Source of the DNA: Pseudanabaena yagii GIHE-NHR1
GTDB taxonomy: Bacteria; Cyanobacteriota; Cyanobacteriia; Pseudanabaenales; Pseudanabaenaceae
Assembly (NCBI RefSeq): GCF_012863495.1
Contig: NZ_JAAVJL010000001.1
Location: 744,001 to 808,000 of the forward strand
DNA length: 64,000 nt
Direction of reading: 5' to 3'
Each line of letters opens with the position of its first letter. The first letter of the stretch is position 1. The notes under the pieces were generated by a model that saw nothing but the letters and a program-made list of their open reading frames with translations, did not search any database and was not told the origin of the DNA. Below, piece after piece: positions 58,279 to 60,317 of this stretch. A program made the translations under genes and the position numbers.

Positions 58279-58731
58279 ATGACCGATAGCAATGACAGTT
58301 TAATCGTCAAGCCCAAAAAATCTGGACTAGCGCCATTGATTCTCACCTTGGTGGAATTGTTGCGCCAGTTAATGGAAGCGCAGGTAATTCGGCGAATGGA
58401 TGCGGAAAAATTAACTGAGTCGGAAATCGAGAGAGCCGCAGATAGCCTACAAGCTCTAGAGAAACAGATTTTCAATCTTTGTGAAGTTTTAGAAATTGAT
58501 CCCGAAGATCTCAATCTCGATCTCGGCGAATTTGGGAAACTGCTCCCTAGACGCGGAGCCTATTATCCAGATCAGTCCTCTAGTGAGTCATCGATTTTGG
58601 AATTACTCGATCGCTTGATTAGTACAGGAATTGTCCTCGAAGGTGATGTGCAGATTGGACTCGCCGATATTAACCTAATCGATCTCAAATTAAAGTTATT
58701 ACTAACTTCAGGCGATAAATCAGCTTCTTAA
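58279..58731 (+). CDS. gvpK: Gas vesicle protein GvpK
   Basis: 150 residues. LAPLILTLVELLRQLMEAQV, IRRMDAEKLTESEIERAADS and LNLDLGEFGKLLPRRGAYYP follow the GvpK pattern, with the C-terminal part (SILELLDRLISTGIVLEGDV) like GvpA/GvpJ. GvpK is an assembly factor of gas vesicles. No other gvp gene is in the window, so it is detached from the usual cluster. The stop codon TAA forms part of the target duplication of the adjacent MITE. Confidence 0.92.
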   Translation: MTDSNDSLIVKPKKSGLAPLILTLVELLRQLMEAQVIRRMDAEKLTESEIERAADSLQALEKQIFNLCEVLEIDPEDLNLDLGEFGKLLPRRGAYYPDQSSSESSILELLDRLISTGIVLEGDVQIGLADINLIDLKLKLLLTSGDKSAS

Positions 58732-58895
58732 CTGATGTTACGTGGAACGCAGATGATAAATCTCTTACTGCTAGCGAAGCAGGGCAACCACGGGGGGATT
58801 GCCCCGACCTGTAAATTTTATATCTTGTAGGGGCTGCGCCCCCGTGCCAGCCCCATACTTCAACCATTGTAGGAATTCCTTCCACGTAACATCAG
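58732..58895. mobile_element. 164-bp MITE-like element
   Basis: Perfect 16-bp terminal inverted repeats CTGATGTTACGTGGAA / TTCCACGTAACATCAG and a 7-bp direct duplication TTCTTAA on both sides (58725-58731, 58896-58902). The interior holds GGGGCTGCGCCCC-like palindromes and no ORF. The parent transposase is not identified. Confidence 0.8.
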
Positions 58896-58902
58896 TTCTT
58901 AA

Positions 58903-60317
58903 CTAGAGATTAGCTTTGCTAATCTCTAGCAAACTTTCCCCTGCAAGCTTTACAGCTTCTTGAATGCGCGTTAATGGCACATGATGCGATCGCGCTAGCT
59001 TCGCGCAGTCCTCATATTCTGGTTGAATCGTCCAGAAGCCATCCCGCCATGCCATCTTCACTCGCGCCTTGCCATATTCCGTTGCGACTTCATGAATCTC
59101 ACGATGGAGGATTTTGCGCTCTTGCCAACGATAGCGAATACCGAGAGTACTAGTTTCCCGAAAGAGAATTTGCTCACAAATAGACTGGCGATCGCAATGG
59201 CAAATAACAGTAATGAGTGTTCCGTTGCGGGATTTTTTCATGCCCACTGCTTGGGTATACACATCCAGAGCGCCATTTTGCAATAACTGCTCCATCGTGT
59301 AGGCGATCGCTTGAGCAGACATATCATCAACTTGAGTTTCCAGAATGACGATGGTTTCAGTAATGCTTGCGATTGGTTGCTGTTTGTCAATTTCTTGAAT
59401 AAAAGCAGCATTAATCTCTAATCTTTTTTTTTATCCTTGGACTTACTTTTCCCAACCCACAACCGTAAGGCATTAGGAATTTCTAAATCCTGAGAACCTG
59501 CACCTAAACCCACTTTTTTGATTTTCATTAAGGGAACTTCGCCAAACTTTTCACTGAGGGTAACAGCGATCGCTGCTCCTGTGGGGGTGACTAATTCCTT
59601 ACGAATACCATTATCAAAGGTAGTTACACTATGTAGTTCCCATAGTTTCAAGGTTGCAGGGGCAGGCACGGGCATCTTGCCATGATCGCAATTGACATAG
59701 CCACCACCCGCAGGCAAAGCCGAACAATAGATTTTTTCGACTGCTAACCAAGCAAAGCCTGCACAGGTGCAGACAATATCGACGATCGCATCGATCGCTC
59801 CTACTTCATGAAAATGGACAGCCTCTGGCGCAATCCCATGCACGGCTCCCTCGGCGATCGCTAGTTCTTTAAATATCGCTAAACTCCACTTCTCAACCTG
59901 CGCTGGTAATTTAGCATGACGAATGATTCTCTCAATATCAGGCAAATGCCGATGCTCTCTATGGGTATGGGTTTCATGATGATCATGGCTATGGGAATGT
60001 TCTCCATGAGCGTGCGCGTCATGATCGTGGGAGTGACTATGGGTATGATCATGGCTATGATCATGGGAATCGGTGGCGGCTACGGTTGGTGGCTCATTAC
60101 CGACATAATTCAATAACTCCACATGGAGTTTTGTCACTTGAATGCCACCACGATAAACTGATTCTGTCCATAGCTTCACTTCGCGATCGAGTCCCAATTT
60201 ATGAACAATATCTTGTAGATATTCTAGTGGGACACCTGCGTTCACTAGCGCCCCCAGACACATATCACCTGCGATGCCTGTCGGGCAATCTAAATATGCA
60301 ATAGTTCCCATACTCAA
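58903..60317 (-). CDS. larC: Nickel-pincer cofactor biosynthesis protein LarC, in two frames joined by a probable -1 frameshift
   Basis: Part 1 (60317-59418): IAYLDCPTGIAGDMCLGALV, a long His-rich nickel-binding stretch (residues about 83-126), and PAGGGYVNCDHGKMPVPAPA. It ends in a run of nine A (59424-59432, read on the minus strand) followed by GATTAG stop. Reading one base back at the A run continues as KRLEINAAFIQEIDKQQPIA ... LETQVDDMSAQAIAYTMEQL to the stop at 58903, the normal second half of LarC. LarC inserts nickel into the lactate-racemase-type cofactor. In Lactobacillus plantarum larC is known to be made by frameshifting, so this is probably real, not an error. larA, larB and larE are absent here. 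Confidence 0.85.
58904..58930 (-). terminator. Terminator at the end of larC
   Basis: CTAGAGATTAGC-TTT-GCTAATCTCTAG, 12-bp perfect stem overlapping the larC C-terminal codons. Confidence 0.6.

Follow-up and report, generated by a model that had tools for sequence, protein, structure and literature searches.

The larC locus and its two reading frames

The window (the whole stretch of 64,000 nucleotides that was analysed) carries on its minus strand, from 60311 to 58903, a larC gene laid out in two reading frames. The 0-frame part (59418 to 60311, minus strand) encodes LarC1, a protein of 297 residues with a His-rich loop; we place its start codon at the ATG at 60311, whereas the list of open reading frames (ORFs) takes the in-frame TTG at 60317 as the start. 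The −1 frame part (58903 to 59424, minus strand) encodes a linker and the LarC2 domain, 173 residues after the slip. The first ORF matched the NCBIfam LarC1 model TIGR00299 (3.1e-64, 215.7 bits, cut-off 90) and the second the LarC2 model NF052512 (7.1e-38, 129.3 bits, cut-off 50). The Pfam family PF01969, of which DUF111 is presumably the old name, was covered by ORF 1 at positions 1-242 (305 bits) and by ORF 2 at positions 239-374 (165.9 bits; cut-off 22.1). The fused protein could be aligned with the solved chains 12bi (full length) and 6bwo (LarC2). At the frame junction 12bi has a shorter stretch, which suggests that the junction lies in the linker between the LarC domains, a place likely to accommodate a Lys-rich insert.

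The 0-frame ends in GGG AAA AGT AAG TCC AAG GAT AAA AAA AAA GAT TAG, as the original prediction had read it (GGAT-A9-GATTAG). The A9 run at 59424-59432 on the minus strand (T9 on the plus strand of the window) consists of three in-phase AAA codons and holds the heptamer A_AAA_AAA, and the stop codon TAG (59420-59418, minus strand) follows one codon past the run. In the −1 frame, a TAA (59433-59431, minus strand) stands where the run begins, and beyond it there is no stop before that of LarC2 at 58903. The overlap of the two frames is just 13 nt, so a slip joining the larC halves has to occur at the A run. An X_XXY_YYZ heptamer in the overlap and in 0-frame phase, as expected of −1 programmed ribosomal frameshifting, is therefore present with A_AAA_AAA, and the uninterrupted run of nine A equally has the form of a transcriptional-slippage cassette (about nine A). 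It had also been proposed that a one-base backward slip would open the LarC2 half without the need for an ATG. In agreement with this, no ATG, GTG or TTG occurs in the window's −1 frame from the run to the end of the LETQVD motif, and the first ATG of that frame cuts LETQVDDM, after which the LarC2 model begins at position 11 instead of position 1.

The products predicted from the sequence are a 297-residue protein (32.4 kDa) without slippage and a 469-residue protein (52.1 kDa) with a −1 slip. If the last A is read twice, the fused sequence becomes ...KDKKK-RLEINAAF..., and the −1 frame encodes the peptide LEINAAFIQEIDK. In all probability larC is one gene with two readings, an in-frame LarC1 and a full LarC obtained by −1 slippage of the ribosome. 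Ribosomes staying in frame at AAA AAA AAA would stop at the TAG one codon on and release LarC1 with its His-rich loop. A fraction would slip back by one base, both tRNA-Lys re-pairing on A_AAA_AAA, and would continue in the −1 frame to the complete 469-residue LarC, which would serve as the CTP-dependent nickel insertase in the synthesis of the nickel-pincer nucleotide.

The genome also encodes LarB (288.9 bits, cut-off 175) and LarE (TIGR00268, 310.1 bits, cut-off 150), which indicates that the nickel-pincer cofactor pathway is present. A profile search of the genome gave no Lar_N (LarA) match. The occurrence of larB and larE without larA agrees with parts of a published study according to which many cyanobacteria make the cofactor without LarA; the same parts describe the LarC of Synechocystis as functional in Escherichia coli (PMC11796402).

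Just downstream of larC, at 58730-58897 of the window, lies a MITE-like element of 168 bp with perfect 18-bp terminal inverted repeats. Its repeat end has 28 matches in the genome, including six inward-facing pairs spanning about 150-170 bp.

Conservation of the split in Pseudanabaena and in other cyanobacteria

The original prediction of a probable programmed −1 frameshift at the nine-A run was to be checked by aligning related larC genes, and this alignment supported it. A LarC match was found in 25 of 26 Pseudanabaena genomes (the exception being G001), and in all 25 the gene was split, with the second half in the −1 frame. Each of them has an uninterrupted A run with three in-phase AAA codons at the same place, an A9 in 21 genomes and an A10 in four, the latter keeping the −1 relation. 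The 0-frame stop follows 2-9 nt past the run in all 25 genomes, and the run always lies inside the frame overlap, which is 13-46 nt long in 22 genomes and 172-181 nt long in the other three. The count takes in G011, whose LarC1 part has a further break; the single-contig assemblies G007 and G023 show the same split. Outside the run, the 25 genes contain 408 AAA and 213 AAG lysine codons (66% AAA), but in the eight codons before the run there are 10 AAA versus 31 AAG codons. Codon bias alone therefore does not account for a pure AAA triplet in every species; since the species are related, no p-value is attached to this comparison. In G002, a second, LarC2-only copy (L165, C17:476624-477040) is located about 7 kb from the main larC; the upstream stretch inspected contains no A9, and by eye the upstream ORF resembles a YoeB-type toxin.

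In the family as a whole, LarC was found in 37 of 38 genomes. It was split in 34 and intact in three, which all belong to genus g3 and contain no A run in their linkers (n = 3). Site and direction are conserved across species here as well, 33 of the 37 genes having their second half in −1 and an X_XXY_YYZ heptamer where the frames overlap. Of the 34 split loci, 31 combine A9 or A10 with the −1 frame and two (g8) combine A_AAA_AAG with the −1 frame. One does not fit: G035 (L042) has A8 with LarC2 in +1, while its sister G034 (L154) has A9 and −1; the A8 could be a sequence error or reflect a different event. In G037, the LarC2 part is cut at the junction by a contig end. Intact relatives with a different number of A, which would have spoken against the prediction, do not occur within the genus; intact genes are found in g3 and in other cyanobacteria.

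In a sample of the phylum, 92 of 146 genomes had a LarC match. Among the 65 other genomes of the same class with a match, 64 carried larC in a single frame and one (G136) carried it split. The remaining matches came from the window's own genome, from seven genomes with a long match, and from 19 genomes of family f25, all of which (19/19) hit only the LarC1 part of PF01969. Next to three of these LarC1-only genes (L170, L171 and L172 in G163, G135 and G049) the following ORFs resemble CbiM and LarE by eye.

In a sample of the class, 382 of 388 genomes had a match, 31 of them in the family. Outside the family this sample was judged by the number of matches per genome, and 23 genomes that had more than one match, or whose best match was weak, were rechecked; G199 and G401, each with one weak match, are not among them. 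One of the 23, G334, had the device of A9, −1 frame and early stop, which together with G136 makes at least two genomes outside the family. Fourteen had a single frame across the LarC1/LarC2 boundary, some of them being broken elsewhere. In G202 (−1) and G346 (+1) the gene breaks close to the boundary, and in G343 it has more than one break; none of these breaks has a slip heptamer. In G299, G238, G403, G255 and G324 the match stops at a contig end near the boundary, so that these genomes are uninformative. In the first four of them it is the LarC1 match that ends at a contig end near the linker, possibly owing to difficulties in assembling that linker.

A careful tree was built from 78 rows, L035, L066 and L157 being left out as too short. 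On it the split state required two changes, the same number as is forced by well supported branches. A quick tree of 43 chosen rows, which included G334, required four, of which branches with good support force two. Most simply, this is read as a single gain in the family followed by a loss in g3, with separate gains in G136 and G334. Two origins of split LarC in cyanobacteria are supported by these trees, and three are likely.

Comparison with known recoded genes

A frameshifted LarC encoded by larC1 and larC2 was reportedly described for Lactobacillus plantarum by Desguin and co-workers in 2014. The analogy to this LarC, drawn in the original prediction, holds at the level of sequence: two L. 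plantarum plasmids, and also L. paracasei pBD-II, contain the junction TTC GAA AAA AAA AAC TAA with LarC2 in −1 and a hairpin 3' of it. The L. plantarum gene resembles that of Pseudanabaena in being split at the same domain boundary, with an A10, an immediate TAA and LarC2 in −1, and it has a downstream hairpin (z −3.78). It differs in the phase of the run (GAA AAA AAA AAC versus AAA AAA AAA) and comes from a different phylum. Moreover, the lactobacillus larC lies beside larB and larE or larD, while the window's genome lacks a larA match, and a single-frame form with A11 exists in one L. paracasei plasmid but in none of the 25 Pseudanabaena genomes. The two L. paracasei plasmid loci concerned (L207 and L208) have the same larC junction, once with A10 (split) and once with A11 (single frame), which is either a run-length polymorphism or an assembly difference. 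Other plasmid copies of LarC, one from L. plantarum and one from Streptomyces, are intact. The Paenibacillus and Niallia plasmids (L210 and L211) carry a LarC whose second half is in +1; the break, at the same domain boundary, has no slip heptamer, and the halves are perhaps two separate genes.

The DUF111 cluster of frameshifted genes in GeneTack shares with larC the occurrence of split genes with fusion relatives, and up to 39% frameshifting in E. coli is given for it in the main text of Antonov et al. (2013; PMC3711429), which, figures and supplements aside, does not name Pseudanabaena. The dnaX genes also yield a short and a long product from one gene, using A_AAA_AAG with a hairpin in E. 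coli (PMC3711429, main text) and A9 in Thermus thermophilus (PMC1088944, in part). The short product of dnaX is the one made by slipping, whereas in larC slipping would yield the long one, and an upstream Shine-Dalgarno-like element as in dnaX, shared across the genus, was not seen by eye in larC.

Recoding of LarC is already known from other bacteria. Among the matches listed in literature searches on LarC frameshifting and its operon, on surveys and on Pseudanabaena, which mostly covered papers outside subscription journals and no supplements, there was no frameshifted cyanobacterial larC. The main text of PRFect (PMC10885494) mentions neither larC nor DUF111 nor cyanobacteria, and larC does not occur in 300,000 characters of the text of PMC5009743. 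Relative to the matches listed, three points are new: that the split is conserved throughout a cyanobacterial genus, that hairpins there carry compensatory changes, and that the split was probably gained more than once.

Origin of the proposed slippage and possible role of LarC1

We infer from these patterns that slippage takes place at the window's larC, that the ribosome is the main slipper and that both products matter. The A9 run by itself would suit RNA polymerase as well, which could slip on it and produce mRNAs with one extra A (or two fewer) that are translated to full LarC. The A9 of T. thermophilus dnaX works in this way with an effect of about 50%, and selection against A/T runs is seen in many bacterial genomes from length nine (PMC1088944, in part). 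In the 5.57-Mb genome studied here, the A9 pattern AAAAAAAAA has 22 matches representing 19 distinct runs, while about 147 are expected from the window's base composition alone; this scarcity, and the uninterrupted run in all 25 genomes of the genus, fit slippage by the polymerase. What argues against it is that a downstream hairpin is still untranscribed when the polymerase is on the run, yet strong hairpins are found in many relatives, and that the two g8 genes use A_AAA_AAG with six A only. Six A are too short for efficient slippage of RNA polymerase. For these two reasons, which come from relatives and not from the window's own sequence, the ribosome is favoured, and slippage by the polymerase is rather unlikely.

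The shortage of such runs, and the three in-phase AAA codons at the larC site in all 25 genomes, also indicate that the larC run is not there by chance. Among the 19 runs, ORFs of at least 80 codons that end 3 nt past the run are limited to larC and six transposase copies (L187, L191, L192, L193, L194 and L198). All seven continue in −1, for 173 residues in larC and for 202 residues in the transposase. The six copies read AAA AAA AAA CTT TAG with the DDE_3 half in −1, and we take them to belong to the IS630-like family. Like larC in the same genome, they have an A9, then a stop and the second half in −1; unlike larC, they belong to a mobile element. A textbook hairpin in these copies was not borne out, the one copy folded giving a z of −0.10. 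A further run, the A10 of L196 (contig C8, 5321-5330, minus strand), lies in an open frame of 120 codons followed by 106 residues open in −1; it is a possible further frameshift site, and the pieces of L196 tried gave no Pfam match.

Hairpins were assessed by folding the 60 nt past the run and comparing them with shuffled sequences (200 shuffles in one run, 100 in the other), a z of −3.5 or lower being counted as strong. The window's own stem-loop (59378-59410, minus strand) lies in the same place as the strong hairpins of many relatives but is weak and not significant: its z was −1.15, with 22 of 200 shuffles folding as well, and in a repeat −0.67 (52 of 200). With 200 shuffles, 15 of the 25 Pseudanabaena loci had a strong hairpin. 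With 100 shuffles there were 13 of 25, compared to three of the 523 further 60-nt windows taken from these genes. The longest stem comprises 25 bp (L018). The stem begins 0-2 nt past the run in nine loci, about 9 nt past it in three (L007, L010 and L011) and elsewhere in the rest. A stimulatory stem usually lies 5-8 nt from the slip site (PMC4066793, in part), so that nine stems are closer than usual. Whatever the stem start, the tip of the hairpin is located 25-32 nt past the run in 14 of the 15 strong cases (33-38 nt in L026); a ribosome on the run may have melted the base of the longer stems, which would leave a similar barrier in each case. No significant hairpin was found in the window's clade (five genomes), in five other Pseudanabaena genomes and in eight split loci outside the genus, so a hairpin stimulator is not universal. 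The shuffle test left out L042 and L154, and L221 was folded without shuffles.

The hairpins of two groups of sequences show compensatory changes. In the first group (six sequences), both sides have changed at four of 25 pairs and 94.7% of the cells pair; in the second (five sequences), both sides have changed at eight of 17 pairs and 88.2% of the cells pair. When the partners were slid by one to three columns, pairing fell to 35-51% in both groups, a comparison that favours the true register because the structures were taken from group members. For register, the rows of L014 and L016 begin with the last A of the A10 run. In both groups, the covariation score and the number of cells changed on both sides were higher than in any of the 500 shuffles. 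The number of pairs with such changes was equalled in 19 of 500 shuffles for the first group, where it favours pairing only weakly, and in one of 500 for the second. The number of further pair types was equalled in 400 of 500 shuffles for the first group, where it does not favour pairing, and in 28 of 500 for the second. An origin of the hairpins from a dispersed repeat was not supported: the core of the one hairpin type searched occurred in four of 26 genomes of the genus (G012, G016, G019 and G021), once each and only in the larC linker.

The hairpins of the relatives might serve another purpose than stimulation, as on the opposite strand a hairpin followed by T9 could form an intrinsic terminator of antisense transcription into larC. 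The loci whose stem begins 0-2 nt from the run do have a terminator layout on that strand. In L007, L010 and L011, however, the stem is 9 nt away, which makes a poor terminator and is near the usual place of a stimulator; the constant position of the tip in 14 of 15 strong hairpins does not fit a terminator either, and a terminator scan of the window did not report this site. We consider this explanation improbable.

A still less probable alternative to slippage is that LarC1 and LarC2 are separate proteins and that translation of LarC2 begins on its own or is coupled to termination at the LarC1 stop. A −1 frame ATG, GTG or TTG between the run and the end of LETQVD is indeed present in 16 of the 25 Pseudanabaena genomes, and the split L. 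plantarum copies of larC are annotated as two genes. Such a start is absent from the window and from eight others of the 25, the first ATG in the window would yield the truncated LarC2 described above, and neither the in-phase A run in all 25 genomes nor the strict −1 relation would be explained. Phase variation, in which replication slippage toggles the tract between a fused and a split state, is very unlikely. Homopolymers mutate often, and the A10 and A11 forms of the L. paracasei plasmids are what such toggling would produce, but none of the 25 Pseudanabaena genes (one genome per species) is fused, and where the run is A10 (four genes) the second half is still in −1; we rejected phase variation on account of this conservation of the split state. 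A sequencing error or a dying pseudogene, for which the error-prone sequencing of homopolymers, the further break in G011 and the A8 tract of G035 could be cited, was dismissed as practically excluded by the recurrence of this split in 25 genomes, among them G007 and G023, in all of which both halves can still be recognised.

As to why the split of larC has been kept, we tentatively suggest that LarC1 has its own job, that the slip ratio sets the balance between the two products, and that LarC recoding arose several times for that reason, although this is the less probable case. LarC1 alone may hold nickel on its His-rich loop or may compete with LarC, and recoding at an A run would have appeared repeatedly, in the Pseudanabaena family, in G136, in G334 and in lactobacilli. 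A job of its own for LarC1 is suggested by the fact that none of the 25 genomes has the fused form, which a change of a single base in the run could create, and by the LarC1-only genes in all 19 f25 genomes with a match, three of which have CbiM- and LarE-like ORFs beside them.

The larC gene of Pseudanabaena is a further chromosomal example of probable recoding, one that is deeply conserved within a lineage of cyanobacteria. Annotation may list such larC genes as two genes, as it does in lactobacilli. The 25 species-level genomes, with one slip site and different hairpins, constitute natural replicates, to which a genus of the family that probably lost the split and probably separate gains elsewhere can be added. 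With them, the reasons for a split LarC and the role of LarC1 become testable in organisms in which the cofactor is made but the known user enzyme is missing.
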